A DNA stretch of 64,000 bases from Streptomyces sp. NBC_01689 (lineage in GTDB: Bacteria; Actinomycetota; Actinomycetes; Streptomycetales; Streptomycetaceae). Below, piece after piece: positions 16,915 to 25,255 of the stretch. The notes under the pieces were generated by a model that was not told the DNA's origin, did no database searches, and worked only from the letters and a program-made list of their open reading frames with translations. The stretch's first letter is position 1; each line of letters opens with the position of its first letter. The DNA is taken from assembly GCF_036250675.1 (NCBI RefSeq), contig NZ_CP109592.1, positions 434,001 to 498,000 on the forward strand, in the 5' to 3' direction. The translations under genes and the position numbers were made by a program.

Positions 16915-17410
16915 CGCGAAGTTCCTTTCCTCGGGTGGCACCACCGCTCCAGGGCGTGACTGCGCGAGGGCCCTCCGGGAAGTCGGCGACGCGCCCACAC
17001 GTAGGGCCCGGGCGTTCCGCGGAGTGGTTCCGCGCTCCGTGGGCTTCCTCCGCGTGCCGTGCGCTTTCTCCGTCGTACCCCTCGCCTCTCCCCCGTGAGC
17101 GCCTCGCCCCTCCCCCAGGGTCGACAAGGGCGACGTCGGTCCGTGCGGGGACGACCAGGTCCGGTCATGTTCGGAGACGACCGTGTGGGGGGGCGCTCGG
17201 AGACGATGTCTCGTGTGCGGACGACGCCGTCCGGCCTCGATCAGCGCAGGGAACGCCACGGAGAGTAGCTGATGCCGCTGTGCAGAACGCGCGGACCGCG
17301 TGATCCGCTCCCGCACCATGCTGTCCGCATCCCGCTCGGCCCGCAACCGGTGACTTGGTGCGCGTCAGCGATTCCCGGGGCCGCAGGCCTCGGCGCGCCT
17401 GCGGGGCCGC
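16915..17410. other. Intergenic, no supported gene
   Basis: 496 bp upstream of the decarboxylase. No copy of the GGTTTG-N5-CAAACC box is present, so the decarboxylase does not appear to share the control of the next cluster. Short Arg-rich frames only. Confidence 0.5.
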
Positions 17411-17869
17411 TCAGGCCTCGGGTCCCGCCATCGACCAGCCCGGCGCGTTGGGCGTCCAGTGAAGACCTCCGCTGTCGAGCGCCTCTCCGCACTCGCCGCA
17501 GACGGTGGTGGGCCGGACCCGGTGGCCGCGGTGTTCCAGGATCATGGGCGGCTCGGCGACGGCCCAGCGGTCGCCCCACGCCAGCAGGCTGACGAGCAGC
17601 GGCAGCAGTTCCCTGCCGGATTCGGTGAGGTGGTACTCGAATCGCGTGGCCTGATACTCGCGCTTCTCCAGAATACCCTCGGCCACGAGGGATTTGAGTC
17701 GCGCGGCGAGCCGGTCGCGCGGCGCTCCCGTGTTGCGGGCGATCTGGCTGAAGCGACGGTTGCCGAACATGATCTCGCGGGCGATCAGCAGCGACCAGCG
17801 GTCGCCGACCAGCTCCAGGGTGGCCGCGACCGCGCAGGGCCTTCCGGGGACTACGGGAAAATCGGGCAT
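17411..17869 (-). CDS. HxlR family winged-helix repressor 1
   Basis: A 152-residue HxlR-type regulator. The winged helix spans residues 10-105: CAVAATLELVGDRWSLLIAR, REIMFGNRRFSQIARNTGAP, then the recognition helix GAPRDRLAARLKSLVAEGIL. A conserved N-terminal Cys12 lies in GRPCAVAATLELVGD. The C-terminal tail has CGECG, a CxxC pair that could bind zinc or act as a redox switch. ATG 17869 is 19 bp from a perfect GGTTTG-N5-CAAACC palindrome, strongly suggesting autorepression. The recognition helix is nearly the same as in the second HxlR protein at 22625, so both may read the same box. Confidence 0.88.
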   Translation of the reverse strand: MPDFPVVPGRPCAVAATLELVGDRWSLLIAREIMFGNRRFSQIARNTGAPRDRLAARLKSLVAEGILEKREYQATRFEYHLTESGRELLPLLVSLLAWGDRWAVAEPPMILEHRGHRVRPTTVCGECGEALDSGGLHWTPNAPGWSMAGPEA

Positions 17870-17887
17870 GTTTCAGCATATCAATTT

Positions 17888-17908
17888 ACGGTTTGTGTAT
17901 CAAACCGT
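17888..17908. promoter_or_regulatory. HxlR box 1
   Basis: ACGGTTTG-TGTAT-CAAACCGT, a palindrome with 8-bp arms and a 5-bp spacer. It lies 19 bp upstream of the HxlR1 start and is the first of five copies of GGTTTG-N5-CAAACC between 17.9 and 22.7 kb. Confidence 0.8.
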
Positions 17909-18020
17909 TCATTGCGGGCAACGAAGGCGTGCGACAGGGGTGGCACAGGGCTTCGCGCCGCGACGAGCTTCCCAGGCGCACCCCGTCAACACACGTTGGC
18001 GGCAGCCGAGCGTCCTGTTA

Positions 18021-18039
18021 TGGTTTGAAATCCAAACCA
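18021..18039. promoter_or_regulatory. HxlR box 2 at the VOC gene promoter
   Basis: TGGTTTG-AAATC-CAAACCA, with its centre 132 bp from box 1 and 17 bp before the VOC start codon. TGTTAT at 18016-18021 could be a -10 element partly covered by the box. A repressor here would block transcription start. Confidence 0.8.
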
Positions 18040-18055
18040 CTCTGGAGGACGGCCC

Positions 18056-18472
18056 ATGTCCGCTCGCGTCACCCCTTACCTCAACTTCGCCGGCAACGCG
18101 CGTGCGGCGATGGAGTTCTACCACTCGGTCTTCGGCGGCACCCTGGACTTCACCACCTACGCGGACCTGCGCCGAGCGGCGGACGCCGGCCAGGAGAACC
18201 TGGTCGCCCACTCGATGCTCAAGGGCGCCACCGGCGTCGTCCTCATGGGATCGGACACCACGGCCCCGGAGGGGGGCCAGACCCGGGGCGCCTTCTCCGT
18301 GGCCCTCGGAGGCGACGAAGAGCACCTCACCGCCTACTGGCACCGGCTCGCCGACGGCGGAACCGTGACGGTGCCCTTCGCCAAGTCCGCGTGGGGCGCG
18401 CTGCACGGACAGTGCGTCGACAGGTTCGGGACTTCCTGGCTGGTGAACGTGACAGCCGGGACGGCCTCCTGA
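18056..18472 (+). CDS. VOC superfamily (PhnB/glyoxalase-like) protein
   Basis: A 138-residue protein of the vicinal-oxygen-chelate superfamily, PhnB-like branch: TPYLNFAGNARAAMEFYHSV, FGGTL, then VAHSMLKGATGVVLMGSDTT, and DGGTVTVPFAKSAWGALHGQ with the closing DRFGTSWLVNV. Metal-binding positions in this branch are often not conserved, so an enzymatic role is uncertain; sequestration of a toxic compound is possible. ATG 18056 follows CTGGAGGAC. It is monocistronic, divergent from HxlR1, under box 2 and followed by a very strong terminator. The immediate partner set is HxlR, VOC and the DHA2 exporter. Confidence 0.82.
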   Translation: MSARVTPYLNFAGNARAAMEFYHSVFGGTLDFTTYADLRRAADAGQENLVAHSMLKGATGVVLMGSDTTAPEGGQTRGAFSVALGGDEEHLTAYWHRLADGGTVTVPFAKSAWGALHGQCVDRFGTSWLVNVTAGTAS

Positions 18473-18506
18473 GAGTCCGTCACTTCAGGCTCGTCACCTC
18501 GTGGTC

Positions 18507-18553
18507 GACCCTCCTGCCCGGGATCCGATTCCGCGATCCCGGGCAGGAGGGTC
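18507..18553. terminator. 19-bp perfect stem-loop, bidirectional terminator
   Basis: GACCCTCCTGCCCGGGATC (18507-18525) pairs exactly with its complement at 18535-18553 across a 9-nt loop. It separates the convergent VOC and DHA2 exporter genes. Confidence 0.85.
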
Positions 18554-18576
18554 TTCCGTCGTGAAGGGCACGGCAC

Positions 18577-20031
18577 TCAGGGCGCCGAGGCCGCGGACCC
18601 CGATCGCAGACGCGGCAGGGCCTGGACCACGCCCGCGGCGAGGCCGAGCACCGCGAAGACCCACCAGATGTGCTGGAAGTTGTCCACTCCTGGACCCGTT
18701 TTCGATGTCCCCAGAAGAGCCACGAAGATGCTGACCCCCAGGACCGCGCCGAGTTGCCGAAAACTGGAATTGATCGCGGATCCGACGGCGAACTGTGCCG
18801 GGGGAAGTTTCGCGACGGCGGCTCCGGACTGCACAGGCAGCGTGAGACCGATTCCCAGACCGGTGAGCAGCGTCCAGGGAAGCCAGTGGGTGACCCAGTG
18901 CGGCGAGGAGTCGACGAAAAGGGCGAATCCGAGGCAGCCCAGAGTCCAGGTGACGGCACCGGCGAAAAGCACGCGGCGGTGGCCTACGACGGTGGCCAGC
19001 TTGGTCGTGGAGCGCGCGATGACGGTGACGACGATCGGCCCGGCGGAACTGGCGAGCGCCGCACGCAGTACCGAGTAGTGCCATTCCGTCTGGAGGAAGA
19101 TCAGATTGGCGAGGAGAAGTCCGAAGAACGCGGTCGAGAACAGAAGCGTGGCGGCGTTGATCTCGGAGAACTGACGCTCCTTGAAGAGCGCGAGGTCCAT
19201 CACCGGCCGCGCCGCCTTAGACGTACGCCACAGGAAGACGGGAAGGGCCAGGGCCGCCGCCACGAATCCCATCACCACCCATGTGTCGGACCATCCGCGG
19301 GAAGGTCCCTCGATGATGGAGAAGCTGAGGAGCGCGGGAATCGCGGCCACGAGAAGCGCCCCGACGGGATCGGGAAGGCCGGAGGCCCCCGGGTCACGGG
19401 ACTCGTGGAGCAGGCTTCTGCCGAGCGCCACGATCACAACGGCGATCGGCACGTTCACCAGGAAGATCCATCGCCAGGACGCGTACTCGGTGAGCAGCGC
19501 TCCGAGCGTGGGGCCGACCGCTGCCGCGGCGGCCGCCATCGCGCCCCAGACGCCGATCGCGACATGTCGGCGGGCGGCGGTGAACTCGTGCAGGACGAGC
19601 GCGAGCGAGGACGGCACGACCAGCGCGGCGAAGACCGCCTGCAGGGCGCGGGCGGTGATCAGCACCCCGGCGCTCGGCGCCAGTCCGCACAGCGCGCTCA
19701 TGAGCGCGAATCCGGTGATGCCCACGATGAATATGTTCTTGCGTCCATAGCGGTCGGCCACCCGGCCCGCCGGGATGAGCATGGCCGCGAACACCAGGCT
19801 GTATGCGTTGAGAACCCACGCCAGATGTCCGGCCGTGGTGTCGAAACTGTGACTGATGGTCTGGAAGGCAATGTTGACAATAGTGGTGTCGAGGAAAACC
19901 ACGAAAGCACCGAGGCTGCCCAGGGCCAACACCCAACCGGCCCGCCGGTTTTCGGTGGGTGCCTCGTCCCGGGATCTTCCCTCGACCGTGTTCCGGTTTT
20001 CCCCCACGGGGGCGCGCTGTGCGTTGTTCAC
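18577..20031 (-). CDS. MFS multidrug exporter, DHA2 (14-span)
   Basis: A 484-residue 14-span transporter. DHA2 motif C-like and motif A features: LDTTIVNIAFQTISHSFDTT (motif D1), RVADRYGRKNIF (motif A) and the EmrB/QacA-type WRWIFLVNVPIAVV. These proton-driven pumps export cationic or lipophilic compounds. I prefer the GTG at 20031, which has GAGGAG 8 nt upstream; an ATG 36 nt further upstream is in frame but lacks a site. HxlR box 3 is 60 bp upstream. It converges on the VOC gene and diverges from the PIG-L gene, so it is probably the efflux arm of this cluster. Confidence 0.87.
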   Translation of the reverse strand: MNNAQRAPVGENRNTVEGRSRDEAPTENRRAGWVLALGSLGAFVVFLDTTIVNIAFQTISHSFDTTAGHLAWVLNAYSLVFAAMLIPAGRVADRYGRKNIFIVGITGFALMSALCGLAPSAGVLITARALQAVFAALVVPSSLALVLHEFTAARRHVAIGVWGAMAAAAAAVGPTLGALLTEYASWRWIFLVNVPIAVVIVALGRSLLHESRDPGASGLPDPVGALLVAAIPALLSFSIIEGPSRGWSDTWVVMGFVAAALALPVFLWRTSKAARPVMDLALFKERQFSEINAATLLFSTAFFGLLLANLIFLQTEWHYSVLRAALASSAGPIVVTVIARSTTKLATVVGHRRVLFAGAVTWTLGCLGFALFVDSSPHWVTHWLPWTLLTGLGIGLTLPVQSGAAVAKLPPAQFAVGSAINSSFRQLGAVLGVSIFVALLGTSKTGPGVDNFQHIWWVFAVLGLAAGVVQALPRLRSGSAASAP

Positions 20032-20090
20032 CGTACACAACTCCTCATGTCCTGTTGTGAGCTGCAACTTGCTCAGGTACGGTAACAGTG

Positions 20091-20113
20091 CATGGTTTGA
20101 AACTCAAACCATG
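20091..20113. promoter_or_regulatory. HxlR box 3, between exporter and PIG-L genes
   Basis: A GGTTTG-AAACT-CAAACC core extended by CAT and ATG to 9-bp arms, the longest of the five. It lies 60 bp before the exporter start and about 245 bp before the PIG-L start, so it could serve both directions. Confidence 0.8.
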
Positions 20114-20297
20114 TAATCCGAGTCACCGTGCCGTAAGGAGATGCGGGTGAGGGACCGGCTCGATGGAGCCGGCCTGGACGCCCGTTTCACCGACCGTCAT
20201 CGGTGGTCGCCGTGGCATGTCCGCCGCGTTCCGGCTCTCTTCGAATCCGTCGGGATGTCACACGCGGACTCGGTAATGGCTGCCAGAAGAAGTCGAC

Positions 20298-20332
20298 GAC
20301 ACCTGTCGACGCGACACGCGTCGACAGGTGTC
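20298..20332. promoter_or_regulatory. Perfect 16-bp inverted repeat before the PIG-L gene
   Basis: GACACCTGTCGACGCG (20298-20313) and its exact complement (20317-20332) flank ACA. It ends 26 bp before the PIG-L start. It could be an operator dyad, an RNA hairpin that limits translation, or a leader-end terminator. No T-tract follows. Confidence 0.7.
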
Positions 20333-20358
20333 TGTCGCGTCAGAGAGAAGCGCTCACC

Positions 20359-21240
20359 ATGCATTCACCGGAGAACCGCCGGCCGACGCTGATGGTCGTG
20401 CACGCGCACCCGGACGACGAGGCCAGCCAAACGGGCGGCACCCTCGCGCGATACGCGGCCGAGGGGTTCCGGACGGTCCTCGTCACCTGCACCGACGGCG
20501 GACAGGGAGACGGGGTCGGGGGCGAGAAACCCGGTCACCCAGGGCACCGGCCGGAGGAGGTCGCCGCACGGCGCTCCGACGAGCTCGCGAGGTCCGCTGC
20601 CGCACTGGGCGTGAGTCGTCTGATCCGCCTGGGCCATCCCGATTCCGGTCTGCCCGGCTCCCCCGACGACGTCGATCCTCGGGCGTTCGGCAGACGCGAC
20701 GGCGAACCCATCGTCCGTCGCCTCGGAGCCCTCCTGCGCGCATACGAGCCGGACGTCCTGGTGACCTATCCCCCCAACGGGCTCTCGAACCACCCGGATC
20801 ACGTCCGGACACACGAACTCACGACCGCCGCGTTCGAGCGCCTCCGGACCGCCGGTGGCTTCCCCGTCCGGGAGGGCACCGGCACACCCTCCGGCCGGCG
20901 TCTGCCGAAGCTGTACCACATCGCCCTCTCCGTCTCCCGCCTCTCGGCGGTCCGAACCCGGGCACAGGAGCTCTTCGGCCCCGACACCTGGACTCCCCCG
21001 CTGGAGATGGGTGTGGACGACGGCGACGTCACCACTGTCGTCGACATCTCCGGGTTCTGGGACCACAAGCTCCGGGCGCTGGCGGCACACGCCGGCCAGC
21101 AGGACGCCCAGGCCCTGCTGGGGATGCTGCGCCTGACCGGTGGCGAGAACCCCGCGGAGGAGTACGTACGCGTCAACCCGCCGTGGACCGGCGGAGAGCG
21201 GGAGAGCGACCTGTTCCAGGGCTTCGCAGACGGGAGTTGA
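20359..21240 (+). CDS. PIG-L/LmbE family deacetylase (MshB/Mca-like)
   Basis: A 293-residue zinc-dependent N-acetyl hydrolase. The family metal motif is VVHAHPDDEAS (His17, Asp19, Asp20) and the second site is SNHPDHVRTHEL. The DSGLPGSPDD loop is of the kind seen in mycothiol-pathway members. Actinomycete PIG-L proteins include MshB (mycothiol synthesis) and Mca, the mycothiol S-conjugate amidase that starts detoxification of electrophile adducts. The sequence is closer in style to Mca, but the assignment is not certain. ATG 20359 follows AGAGAGAAG. It shares the intergenic region with the exporter and HxlR box 3, which supports a detoxification role. Confidence 0.82.
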   Translation: MHSPENRRPTLMVVHAHPDDEASQTGGTLARYAAEGFRTVLVTCTDGGQGDGVGGEKPGHPGHRPEEVAARRSDELARSAAALGVSRLIRLGHPDSGLPGSPDDVDPRAFGRRDGEPIVRRLGALLRAYEPDVLVTYPPNGLSNHPDHVRTHELTTAAFERLRTAGGFPVREGTGTPSGRRLPKLYHIALSVSRLSAVRTRAQELFGPDTWTPPLEMGVDDGDVTTVVDISGFWDHKLRALAAHAGQQDAQALLGMLRLTGGENPAEEYVRVNPPWTGGERESDLFQGFADGS

Positions 21241-21415
21241 CCTCCACCTCTCCTCCGTCCCGGATCGCCGGACGCCAAGTGCCGCCGCACAGCGCCTTGG
21301 TGGCGTCCAGCGCTGCCACGGCCGGCCCCTTCCGCAGGAGCCGGCGGTGCCCCTTACGCGGGAGCCGGCCATGCCGCTCCCGCGGGGACACGGGAGCGGC
21401 ACCGCCGCGATCGGC

Positions 21416-22396
21416 TCACTCCTCGGTGGAGAGGCCCTCCGCCACCGTACGAGCACCGCCGGCCGCAGCCTGCGCACCTCGCTCGTGGAGAGGGGCTGTC
21501 GGCGTGCGGTCGATCCGCAGGCCGAGGAGTTCAGGGCGGCTGTAGTGGCCGCGCGCGTCCATCAACCGCTTGCGCTGGTCGATCAGTCCGAAGTCCAGGT
21601 CGGCGATGACCTCGCCCTCACCGGAGGTGAGCGGCTCGCCGAGAACGCGTCCCTCGGGGTCGACGATCGCCGTGAAGAATCCGCCGGAAAGCGCCGGGCC
21701 GCCGGTGTCCTCGGCGATGCGCCCCACCTGGTCCTGGTCCAGCCACGCGGTCGCGCAGACCACGAAGCAGGCGGCCTCCAGAGCGTGCTGACGGATGTTC
21801 ACCTCGATCTGCTCCGCGAACAGCGCCCCGCCGAAGGAACCGGGATACATCGCCGCGTGGATCTGCTCGCCGTCGGCGATCAACGCGTAGCGGGCGAGGG
21901 GCTGGTAGTGCTCCCAGCAGGCGAGTTGGCCGACACGGCCGACGGCGCTGTCCACAGCGCGCAGGCCGGAGGCGTCGCCCTGCCCCCAGACGAGCCGCTC
22001 GTGATAGGTCGGCGTGATCTTCCGGCGGCGCTGGATCAACGTGCCGTCCGCGTCGAACAGGAGCTGCGTGTTGTAGATGGTCCCGCCGTCCCGCTCGTTG
22101 ACACCGATCGAGACGACCATGTGTGCCTCGCGCGCGGCCCGGGCGATGGCGTCGGTCTCGGCGGACGGCACCGTCACCGACTCCTCCAACAGACGCAGCG
22201 GCTCCTTGGCCATGGCGTAGGGCGCCTGCACGAAGGAGAAGTAGGGGTAGTAGGGAATGACGGTCTCGGGGAAGACCGCGTACTGGACCCCCTTCGTACC
22301 CAACTCGCGGATCTTGTCGACGACCTTCTCGACGGTGCCCGCTCGGCTGTACAGCACCGGGCTGATCTGGACTGCGGCTGCCTTCACTACGGTCAT
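21416..22396 (-). CDS. Nitrilase (carbon-nitrogen hydrolase)
   Basis: A 326-residue true nitrilase-branch enzyme, converting nitriles to carboxylic acid and ammonia. The catalytic triad is visible: Glu44 in FPETVIPYYPYFSFVQ, Lys126 in RRRKITPTYHERLVWGQGD and Cys160 in GQLACWEHYQPLARYAL. The PTYHERLVWGxGD and CWEHxxPLxRY signatures separate nitrilases from amidases and cyanide hydratases in most cases. ATG 22396 follows AAGGAA. It diverges from HxlR2; two HxlR boxes lie in that region, on the HxlR2 side, about 220 bp upstream. Aromatic or aliphatic specificity cannot be read. It might act on cyano compounds or cyanogenic detoxification products. Confidence 0.9.
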   Translation of the reverse strand: MTVVKAAAVQISPVLYSRAGTVEKVVDKIRELGTKGVQYAVFPETVIPYYPYFSFVQAPYAMAKEPLRLLEESVTVPSAETDAIARAAREAHMVVSIGVNERDGGTIYNTQLLFDADGTLIQRRRKITPTYHERLVWGQGDASGLRAVDSAVGRVGQLACWEHYQPLARYALIADGEQIHAAMYPGSFGGALFAEQIEVNIRQHALEAACFVVCATAWLDQDQVGRIAEDTGGPALSGGFFTAIVDPEGRVLGEPLTSGEGEVIADLDFGLIDQRKRLMDARGHYSRPELLGLRIDRTPTAPLHERGAQAAAGGARTVAEGLSTEE

Positions 22397-22611
22397 GGTG
22401 CGGTTCCTTCTCGATGGGCGGGGTCGTCGCCTGCGGTTCTGTACGCGTCGGCAGAGGCGGAGGTCCGCACGGCGCCGGGGCTCGGCCGCCCGTGGGCGCG
22501 CGCCGGGGTCCGGCATGCCGGCGGTCAGCGCCCCGGAGGACGGTTCCTCGGCGGCCTCGGGCGAACGGTGGCCCCGGAACGGCCGGCGTTCGATCCGACG
22601 ACTTCCCGGAC

Positions 22612-22671
22612 TAAGATGGTTTGAATGTCAAACCAATCGCAGCATACACATGCAGGTTTGGAAAACAAACC
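22612..22671. promoter_or_regulatory. HxlR boxes 4 and 5 with leaderless promoter of HxlR2
   Basis: Box 4 is TGGTTTG-AATGT-CAAACCA (22617-22635) and box 5 is GGTTTG-GAAAA-CAAACC (22655-22671), centres 37 bp apart. A -10-like TAAGAT (22612-22617) ends 7 nt before the HxlR2 ATG at 22625. Box 4 therefore covers the -10 edge, start site and initiation codon, and box 5 lies inside the coding region. Confidence 0.75.
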
Positions 22672-23095
22672 GAAGCGGGACTCCCTGGCGTTCGCGCTCG
22701 ACGCGGTCAGCGACCGGTGGTCCCTGCACATCGTGCGCGCGGTGGCCTTCGGCGCGTCGCGTTACACGGACATCCTGCGCGCGGTGGGAGCACCGAGAGA
22801 TGTCCTGTCCTCCCGGCTCCGCAGGCTCACCGCGTCCGGGATCCTGCGCCCGCACTCTCCGGAGAAGGGCCGGCTCGCCGGGTACGAGCTGACCCGGAAG
22901 GGCCGCGAGCTCGGCCGGGTCGTCCTGGTACTCAAACGCTGGGGCGACACCCACGGCGGGGACGACGTGCCCCGGGTCGACTTCGTCCACGACGTCTGCG
23001 GCGAGGTGTTCGTCGCCGAGGTCCACTGTCGCGCTTGCGGGAGTCCGATCGGGTCGGGCGAGTTCTCCGTCCACCACGCGTCTCAGGACTGCTGA
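22625..23095 (+). CDS. HxlR family winged-helix repressor 2
   Basis: A 156-residue HxlR regulator. After a 17-residue lead, the winged helix runs DSLAFALDAVSDRWSLHIVR, then AVGAPRDVLSSRLRRLTASG, almost the same recognition helix as HxlR1 (GAPRDxLxxRLxxL). The C-terminus has four cysteines, three of them in DVCGEVFVAEVHCRACG, resembling a small zinc ribbon or redox cluster, and the last residue is Cys. The ATG at 22625 is inside HxlR box 4 and probably leaderless; a TTG at 22658 is a weaker alternative. It probably represses itself and, with or against HxlR1, the VOC, exporter and possibly nitrilase genes. Confidence 0.86.
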   Translation: MSNQSQHTHAGLENKPKRDSLAFALDAVSDRWSLHIVRAVAFGASRYTDILRAVGAPRDVLSSRLRRLTASGILRPHSPEKGRLAGYELTRKGRELGRVVLVLKRWGDTHGGDDVPRVDFVHDVCGEVFVAEVHCRACGSPIGSGEFSVHHASQDC

Positions 23096-23246
23096 CGCCC
23101 GGCCACCGGGACGAGGAGCCGCTGTCCGCGGCAGGGCGCGGGCGCGCGTGCGGCTCACACGGGGAACGCGGACGCCGCGAAAATTCCGTCGGCCTGGACG
23201 GGAAGAATCCAGACTGGGCACTTGGTTCTAAATCAGGTAGCGTCGA

Positions 23247-23317: not shown

Positions 23318-23626
23318 GTGAGCTGGGACAACACGTGGATGATGGGAGTGCGACTCCACTCGGACACGGAATCGCCCGTCAGCTACTTCTGTCTCGTGGA
23401 CGGCACTGTCAGCGGCGCCGGAGCCCGCAGCACCGCCGTCAGCAGGGCCGTACGCACCTCCGAGATCCCGGCTCGCACCGACACCGGACCGGATGCCCCG
23501 TGGGCGCGGGTGCAGCGCCTGGTCCACGATCCGCTGGGCCGGATCTCACTGTCCGCCCCGCTCCCCGCCGAGCCCTCGCCGGCCACACGAGCCCCCCTCG
23601 CACCGCTCACCGGGGAACCATCATGA
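23318..23626 (+). CDS. Small hypothetical protein coupled to HxlR3
   Basis: A 102-residue protein, MSWDNTWMMGVRLHSDTESP followed by VSYFCLVDGTVSGAGARSTA. The GTG start is preceded by GGAAGGGAGAGG, and the stop overlaps the ATG of the HxlR-SCP2 gene by ATGA (23623-23626). The ribosome site and coupling support a real gene. Composition is soluble; the C-terminal 30 residues are Pro/Ala-rich. I do not recognise it. Its position suggests a partner or sensor for the regulator. Confidence 0.5.
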   Translation: MSWDNTWMMGVRLHSDTESPVSYFCLVDGTVSGAGARSTAVSRAVRTSEIPARTDTGPDAPWARVQRLVHDPLGRISLSAPLPAEPSPATRAPLAPLTGEPS

Positions 23627-24288
23627 CCCGGTCCTACGAACAGACCTGCCGCATCGCCCGCGCCCTCGACGTGCTGGGGGAGCGCTGGACGCTCCTCATC
23701 GTGCGCGAGCTCGCCCTGGGACCACGCCGGTACGGTGACCTCCTCGCCGACCTGCCCGGCATGGGCACCAGCCTGCTCGCCGCTCGGCTGAGGCACCTGG
23801 AGCGGTACGACGTGGTGCGCCGTACGGTCCTGCCCGGCCCGGGGCGCGCCGCGGGATACGAGCTCGGTGCCCGGGGTACGGCCCTGACACCGCTCCTGGC
23901 GTCCCTCGTCGAGTGGGGCGGAGGCCTCGCTCCCCCGCCGCCCGGCTCCTTCGACCGGGCCGCCTGGACGATGCTGGCCATGCGCCTCACGGCTCCTGGG
24001 GAGGCGGTCGACTTCGACACCGTGACGGAGATCGCGGTGGACGGGGAGACGCTGTGGCTGCAGGGCGACGGCGAGCGGGTGCGGCTGGAGACCGGCCCCG
24101 CGCCGGTGAAGCCCGGGCTGCGGCTGACCTCGGGGAGAGCGACGTTCCAGGCTCTCGCCACGGGTGGGGTGACCGTCGACGACGCGATGGCCTCCGGGGA
24201 ACTCGCCGTACAGGGCGACGCCGACCGCGCCCGGTTGTTCTTCGACCTCTTCAGCCTGACGAACCCCTCCCCCGCCCACGGTCATTGA
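23623..24288 (+). CDS. HxlR winged helix fused to SCP2-like domain (HxlR 3)
   Basis: A 221-residue two-domain regulator. Residues 1-100 are an HxlR winged helix (QTCRIARALDVLGERWTLLI, then LPGMGTSLLAARLRHLERYD). Residues about 110-215 resemble an SCP2 sterol-carrier fold (FDRAAWTMLAMRLTAPGEAV to the closing GELAVQGDADRARLFFDLFS), which binds lipophilic ligands. Cys6 takes the usual HxlR position. The recognition helix differs from HxlR1 and HxlR2, so a different operator is expected, perhaps TTACCGGTAA at 23247. It probably controls its own two-gene unit and perhaps the NmrA-like gene 91 bp downstream. Confidence 0.85.
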   Translation: MTRSYEQTCRIARALDVLGERWTLLIVRELALGPRRYGDLLADLPGMGTSLLAARLRHLERYDVVRRTVLPGPGRAAGYELGARGTALTPLLASLVEWGGGLAPPPPGSFDRAAWTMLAMRLTAPGEAVDFDTVTEIAVDGETLWLQGDGERVRLETGPAPVKPGLRLTSGRATFQALATGGVTVDDAMASGELAVQGDADRARLFFDLFSLTNPSPAHGH

Positions 24289-24379: not shown

Positions 24380-25255
24380 GTGACGAACCGCAACCTCCTG
24401 GTGATCGGAGCCACCGGCAAGACCGGCAGGCACACCACCGAACTGCTGCTCCAGCGTGGCCATCACGTCCGCGCGCTCGTCCGGACCGTCGACGAACGCT
24501 CCCGCGAGCTCGCGGATCTCGGTGCGGAGCTCTCGGTCGGGGACGCCCATGACCTCGACTCCCTGGCCCGGGCCACCGAAGGGATCGACGCCGCCTACTT
24601 CACCTATCCGATCCTGCCCGGCCTCATGGACGCCACGGCGAACGTCGCCCAGGCGGCGGAGGAGAACGGCGTGGGCGCGATCGTGAACATGTCCCAGATC
24701 TCGGCCCGCCGCGAGTCCCGCAGCAACGCGGCGCGCCAACACTGGGTCGCCGAACGGCTGCTGGACCGCGCCCGGCCCGCGGTCACCCACCTCCGCCCCA
24801 CGTTCTTCGCCGAATGGCTGGTCAACATGTGGGACGGCACGGGCGAACTGCGCCTGCCGTTCGCGGACGCGCGCCACGCGCCCATCGCCGCCGTCGACCA
24901 GGCGAAGGTGATCGCCGCCGTCCTCGAGGAGCCCGCCCCGCACGCGGGCAAGATCTACCCGCTCTACGGCGCGGTCGAGTTGAACCACTACGAGATCGCC
25001 GAGGCGATGTCCCGCGCCCTGGGCCGCGAGGTGACCTACGTACCCGTGGAACTCGACGAGTTCGCCGCCATCCTGGAGAAGCGAGGTGCCTCACCGCATC
25101 TCGTCCAGCACCTTGTCGCCGTCGCCGTCGACTACCGCAACGGCATCTTCTCCGGTATGAACGACCTGGTGAAGAGAATCGGCGGCGACGACCCGCTCGG
25201 CGTCGAGGACTTCGTAGCCCTGAACCGGTCCTTCTACGACGGCCACTCCGCGTGA
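24380..25255 (+). CDS. NmrA-like NAD(P)H-binding protein
   Basis: A 291-residue atypical short-chain dehydrogenase of the NmrA/QorB type. The Rossmann motif is LLVIGATGKTGRHTTELLLQ (GxxGxxG) and a typical ALVRTVDERS strand follows, implying NADP preference. No YxxxK pair is evident where classical SDRs have it, as in NmrA proteins, which sense NAD(P) or reduce quinones and other electrophiles. GTG 24380 follows GAGAAGGAAA. It is the third gene in the direction of the HxlR3 unit and could be its regulated target. Confidence 0.83.
   Translation: MTNRNLLVIGATGKTGRHTTELLLQRGHHVRALVRTVDERSRELADLGAELSVGDAHDLDSLARATEGIDAAYFTYPILPGLMDATANVAQAAEENGVGAIVNMSQISARRESRSNAARQHWVAERLLDRARPAVTHLRPTFFAEWLVNMWDGTGELRLPFADARHAPIAAVDQAKVIAAVLEEPAPHAGKIYPLYGAVELNHYEIAEAMSRALGREVTYVPVELDEFAAILEKRGASPHLVQHLVAVAVDYRNGIFSGMNDLVKRIGGDDPLGVEDFVALNRSFYDGHSA

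Follow-up and report, generated by a model that had tools for sequence, protein, structure and literature searches.

In a window of 64,000 nucleotides (nt) from Streptomyces sp. NBC_01689 (contig NZ_CP109592.1, positions 434,001 to 498,000; the whole stretch of DNA analysed), the palindrome GGTTTG-N5-CAAACC occurs five times within 4.8 kilobases, each time exactly, at a locus encoding two proteins of the HxlR family, here called HxlR1 and HxlR2. We consider it probable, on the evidence of sequence comparison, that these boxes are the operators of a locally confined, autoregulated HxlR regulon. This is the most likely reading because the recognition-helix motif G[AG]PxD tracks the box among HxlR loci and both HxlR proteins here carry GAPRD. 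It draws on the sites and where they lie, on their absence from the rest of the genome, on the way box and helix go together among HxlR loci, and on the conservation of a pair of boxes at HxlR2. The sites are as follows.

17890..17906, no strand: Box 1, GGTTTGTGTATCAAACC, 20 nt upstream of the HxlR1 ATG
18022..18038, no strand: Box 2, GGTTTGAAATCCAAACC, 17 nt upstream of the ATG of a VOC-superfamily gene
20094..20110, no strand: Box 3, GGTTTGAAACTCAAACC, within perfect 10-nt arms CATGGTTTGA/TCAAACCATG
22612..22617, plus strand: -10-like TAAGAT, immediately before Box 4, ending 7 nt upstream of the HxlR2 ATG
22618..22634, no strand: Box 4, GGTTTGAATGTCAAACC, holding the HxlR2 start codon (22625) and encoding MSN
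22655..22671, no strand: Box 5, GGTTTGGAAAACAAACC, HxlR2 codons 11-16 (GLENKP), 37 base pairs (bp) centre to centre from Box 4

A first-pass annotation made from the letters of the window had reported these five copies, and the count is borne out. Its start for the last box, 22655, is exact, while the other four, given as 17888, 18021, 20091 and 22617, begin at 17890, 18022, 20094 and 22618. Allowing up to two mismatches in the window returns the same five boxes and no extra site, and dinucleotide shuffles of the window reached five boxes in 0 of 100 trials (mean 0.87, largest 3). The whole genome (9,958,319 bases in 2 contigs) contains no exact box beyond these, so that one palindrome stands at several promoters of the locus and nowhere else; a reversed control pattern gave 0 matches. 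At one mismatch the genome adds a single site, C1:5059275, which we read as a chance match because it lies inside a 770-codon open reading frame (L147:907-3219, called by a simple frame picker). A count over 294 further genomes of the genus gives 15 exact copies, spread over 13 genomes with at most two in any one.

With 0 other exact sites, the many random matches outside promoters that would have told against an operator set did not occur, nor did the further matches at related detoxification genes that the first-pass annotation expected. A genome-wide detoxification regulon is ruled out, there being no exact site outside the locus and the lone one-mismatch site lying within a reading frame. 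The extended motif ATGGTTTG-N5-CAAACCAT is likewise ruled out as a general form: it belongs to Box 3 only, in 1 of 199 genus genomes. Palindromes may be repeats, and clustering at one genomic place would fit a local repeat, yet it is highly improbable that the boxes are a repeated element or chance occurrences rather than operators. The shuffles and the whole-genome and genus counts exclude chance, and the arms are fixed while spacers and flanks differ among the copies. Conservation of the HxlR2 pair across genera, described below, also argues for operators. In all five boxes four of the five spacer positions are A or T, against a window GC content of 69.9%.

The genes at issue are listed here; a Nit6803-like nitrilase also lies between HxlR1 and HxlR2, together with the VOC, exporter and PIG-L genes, and the NCBIfam matches of the locus genes all fall under the curated cut-offs.

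17411..17869, minus strand: HxlR1, 152 amino acids, PF01638 at 71.8 bits (cut-off 20.8), helix GAPRDRLAARL, Cys12, Cys124 and Cys127
18056..18472, plus strand: VOC-superfamily gene, 138 amino acids, PF06983 and PF00903
18577..20031, minus strand: DHA2-type MFS exporter, TIGR00711 at 221.7 bits, just below the cut-off of 230.2
20359..21240, plus strand: PIG-L family deacetylase, PF02585, of doubtful membership in the regulon
22625..23095, plus strand: HxlR2, 156 amino acids, PF01638 at 53.4 bits (cut-off 20.8), helix GAPRDVLSSRL, Cys125, Cys135, Cys138 and Cys156

Four boxes lie at or near promoters, as had been claimed for each; Box 5 lies inside the HxlR2 frame, and the proposed link between Box 3 and PIG-L is weak. 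Box 1 covers the -35 element (17898-17903) and the spacer of a minus-strand sigma-70-like promoter of HxlR1, whose -10 element (17875-17880) ends 5 nt ahead of the ATG; it was the sole sigma-70-like site from a consensus scan of 17400-23200. By eye, Box 2 overlaps a -10-like TATGGT (18019-18024) situated 17 nt after TTGGCG (17996-18001). Box 3 is 62 nt from the putative GTG start of the DHA2 gene at 20031, which we picked on Shine-Dalgarno-like sequence within a frame that itself reaches TTG at 20067. Control of PIG-L from Box 3 is doubtful, as 248 nt separate the box from the PIG-L ATG and a perfect inverted repeat (20298-20332, 16-nt arms, 3-nt loop) stands between them, just upstream of the PIG-L start, where it is possibly PIG-L's own operator or attenuator. 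At HxlR2, the TAAGAT hexamer ending 7 nt upstream of the ATG implies a transcript that is probably leaderless. Another perfect inverted repeat, with 19-nt arms (18507-18553), lies where the VOC and DHA2 genes converge and is probably a terminator common to both.

The link between the box and its likely reader comes from 97 HxlR loci: 64 HxlR1 relatives from a scan of named genomes, 29 from 199 genus genomes (a fetched subset of many more matches listed, besides our own locus), and four regions around paralogs in the same genome. A box was counted at two or fewer mismatches, from about 250 bp upstream to 30 bp inside the gene. Its presence near the gene start falls with identity to HxlR1, from 31 of 46 loci at 50% or more to 6 of 20 at 45-50%, 1 of 25 at 38-45% and 0 of 6 below that, over a background in the remainder of these loci of 12 boxes per 685,378 bases, or 0.0049 per 280 bp. 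Sorted by helix, 37 of 53 loci with G[AG]PxD have a box versus 1 of 43 without that helix (one locus was unscored), with a Fisher p of 1e-12 that overstates the association because the loci are related. The suggestion that this is an HxlR-type box is supported: both proteins belong to PF01638, both carry GAPRD, and the box class tracks the G[AG]PxD helix.

The box is not peculiar to HxlR1 and HxlR2. Two paralogs in the same genome (in L148 and L149) combine a GAPRD helix with two-mismatch boxes upstream, so cross-talk is possible. Among the exact-box loci of other genus genomes, 14 of 15 were fetched, and 5 of these adjoin an HxlR1-like gene, 4 of them together with a DHA2-type exporter. As judged from these loci, GGTTTG-N5-CAAACC is one form of a broader class of HxlR operators. 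In L022 and L025 (Planotetraspora and Trebonia), the DHA2 genes, which at 68% identity are the closest to that of the window among the collected loci, sit beside HxlRs with GVSRD or GASRD helices, and the nearest upstream box-like sites are AGTTGTGACTTCCAACT and TGTTGTGATTTCCAACC; helix and operator half-site may change together.

The box pair at HxlR2 is conserved in another genus. Of 160 genomes of Micromonospora (the genus of L042, Micromonospora veneta), 11 encode an ortholog at 67-73% identity, and in all 11 the pair is kept over the ATG and codons 11-16 with the same 37-bp spacing, the box at codons 11-16 being exact in every case. TAGTGT (9 loci) or TAGAGT (2 loci) ends 7 nt upstream of the ATG in all 11, like the window's TAAGAT. 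On the opposite strand, 28 nt off, lies the ATG of a frame of 334-344 codons, again in 11 of 11; the copy in L136 looks by eye like a membrane protein, and this one copy gave no Pfam or NCBIfam match. After HxlR2 in L136 and L142 come a VOC gene in convergent orientation, at 62-63% identity to that of the window, and an alpha/beta hydrolase. Judging from these two loci, the association of HxlR2 with VOC may be an old one.

The pair also appears to have left its mark on the HxlR2 protein and its codons. In 12 DNA sequences (the window and the 11 from Micromonospora), Gly11 is GGT in 12 of 12, Leu12 is TTG in 12 of 12 and Lys15 is AAA in 12 of 12, whereas from codon 18 on GGT makes up 12 of 141 Gly codons, TTG 5 of 177 Leu codons and AAA 11 of 58 Lys codons. 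Third-position GC is 0.47-0.76 over codons 1-17 and 0.81-0.94 afterwards. We analysed 120 of 128 homologs found, 74 of which have at least 24 residues ahead of a DRW anchor; in these longer homologs MSN is present in 63 and GLxxKP in 56. Residues 1-15 of HxlR2 are predicted to be disordered (predicted local distance difference test score below 50), so no folding reason is apparent for the conservation of MSN or GLxxKP. Thus the operator pair appears to dictate the HxlR2 N-terminus (MSN...GLxxKP), written in rare codons over a predicted disordered tail. Two homologs, P0065 and P0109, are annotated three codons earlier, with protein sequences beginning MVWMSN and MVRMSN. A Box 4 of sequence GGTTTGG-ATG or GGTTCGA-ATG, together with choice of the earlier ATG by the gene caller, would produce such starts.

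Several observations weigh against a local HxlR regulon with two boxes in the HxlR2 coding sequence. The VOC and DHA2 promoters are absent from the output of the consensus promoter scan. The box is missing at 16 of the 53 G[AG]PxD loci, the counts over all loci are not independent given their kinship, and 9 of the 14 fetched exact-box loci have neither an HxlR by tblastn nor a DHA2-type exporter. In Micromonospora the box over the ATG is GGTTTGAATGTCCAACC in 11 of 11, with one mismatch (CCAACC), and the sole exact box in each of the 11 genomes is the one at HxlR2 codons 11-16. Outside HxlR2, the hydrolase-VOC stretches of L136 and L142 contain no box within three mismatches, and among the 11 Micromonospora genomes a box at the VOC or exporter gene is not conserved. 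The last two points concern the start of HxlR2: among 45 short homologs, 23 start at the position of the TTG of Box 5, and codons 4-10 of the 11 Micromonospora sequences vary equally at the three codon positions (4, 4 and 4 of 7), so these codons are themselves no proof of translation.

These two points, and the predicted disorder of residues 1-15, would suit translation from the TTG in Box 5 (codon 12), in which case Box 4 would be a plain promoter operator and only Box 5 would overlap coding sequence. We think such a start unlikely. A -10-like hexamer stands 7 nt before the ATG in all 12 sequences, a leaderless geometry, and inspection finds no Shine-Dalgarno-like sequence upstream of the TTG. 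The prevalence of MSN in the longer homologs also argues for the ATG, though the DNA box alone could account for MSN.

In the local regulon as we picture it, HxlR2 dimers, and probably HxlR1 dimers too, would occupy the 17-bp box and keep RNA polymerase from initiating at the HxlR1, VOC, DHA2 exporter and HxlR2 promoters, until a toxic or electrophilic compound lifted the block and the exporter and VOC protein were made. HxlR2 would repress itself through its two boxes, of which the first spans the start codon and the second, 37 bp away, falls in codons 11-16 of a probably leaderless mRNA. The model thus supposes binding, repression, an inducer and a leaderless start, and that all sites would be common to both proteins.

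The last supposition has a competitor, in which HxlR2 (or HxlR1) alone governs the five boxes, the remaining HxlR being either a relic or directed at a different target. A single reader is a real possibility that we rate as clearly short of even: nothing but the HxlR2 pair is conserved across genera, and HxlR1 and HxlR2 share only about 37% alignment identity. Box 1, however, lies on HxlR1's own promoter, same-class boxes precede HxlR1 relatives at 50% identity or more, one of them exact (L076), and GAPRD is present in both helices.

The two proteins also differ in their sensor chemistry. HxlR1 has an N-terminal cysteine of the thiol-sensor kind, Cys12, which 84 of 86 aligned relatives retain and which we take to be equivalent to the cysteine of YodB and HypR; Cys124 and Cys127 are kept in 79 of 83 and 81 of 83. 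The first cysteine of HxlR2 is residue 125, and a nearly invariant Asp19 stands at roughly the place of HxlR1 Cys12; an alignment of 52 members shows no variation at Cys125, Cys135 and Cys138. With Cys12 in HxlR1 and no N-terminal cysteine in HxlR2, the two proteins therefore probably answer different signals. More tentatively, as a proposal that may well be right but that we hold at somewhat less than an even chance, a thiol-bearing HxlR1 and an HxlR2 devoid of N-terminal cysteine would act as a two-repressor logic on one box. In that scheme MSN-(~7)-GLxxKP would record DNA binding rather than protein function, and an HxlR2-VOC module would have joined with DHA2 and HxlR1, the boxes then becoming identical.

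The distribution of the genes bears on such an origin. In the genus, HxlR2 is found in 1 of 392 genomes at E 1e-30 (9 first-pass candidates scored per listed genome) and the DHA2 gene in 1 of 328 at E 1e-120 (4 candidates scored), each in its own genome only. Class-wide, HxlR2 is found in 8 of 394 genomes at E 1e-25, the seven besides its own being 41-45% identical; the family of genome G494 gave an uninformative 0 of 12, and every one of 328 plasmid records was below 60% identity. Because HxlR2 and DHA2 were found within the genus in this genome alone and the closest DHA2 genes among the collected loci are those of Planotetraspora and Trebonia, we regard the locus as a probable mosaic, acquired from other actinomycetes. 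Next to it, at 23626-24288, is a third HxlR, which has no box and is extended by an SCP2-like tail whose match is just below cut-off; an NmrA-like gene (24380-25255) follows.

Actinomycete genomes encode many HxlR members. If the GAPxD helix is linked to the operator class GGTTKG-N5-CMAACC and its near forms, HxlR targets would become predictable in these bacteria. The locus would also offer a compact case of a repressor binding site dictating the sequence and codon choice of its own protein, and a natural setting in which to study the sharing of one site by two paralogous sensors. Our literature search, which covered titles and abstract openings among the matches listed, with most subscription journals outside its scope, returned none on this box. 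Sequence relatives of HxlR1 and HxlR2 are present among solved HxlR-type structures. In a fold comparison with the HxlR2 model, the HxlR and QsrR rows tie with MarR-family rows, so the comparison cannot separate these families.

Among known systems, lac O2 in lacZ is an operator that overlaps coding sequence, and the HxlR2 boxes resemble it in placing a repressor site within a reading frame. Unlike lac O2, the HxlR2 sites both fall within the first 16 codons of the repressor gene itself, and the encoded residues and rare codons are kept across genera. Also related are the HxlR-family autoregulators HxlR, YodB and HypR of Bacillus subtilis (PF01638, DUF24), which share the winged-helix family, a palindromic operator and a neighbouring detoxification or export gene. 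In the consulted part of the paper on B. subtilis HxlR, that protein is an activator that senses formaldehyde via Cys11 and Lys13, and the DNA co-crystallised with it is CAGTATCCTCGAGGATACTG (PMC7835342). As given there, CAGTATCCTCGAGGATACTG differs from GGTTTG-N5-CAAACC, and HxlR2 has no cysteine at the place of Cys11. Further parallels are loci of Streptomyces and Kitasatospora with an HxlR1-like gene and a divergent DHA2 gene (for example L008-L015 and L017-L019), mostly with the helix GAPRDRLAARL and a box of the same class. In those loci a single box, GGTTTG-N5-CCAACT, lies between the two divergent genes, whereas in the window five exact boxes go with two HxlRs. In the window it is the VOC gene that is the divergent neighbour, with the exporter further off, and the exporters of the other loci are only 41-43% identical to the window's.

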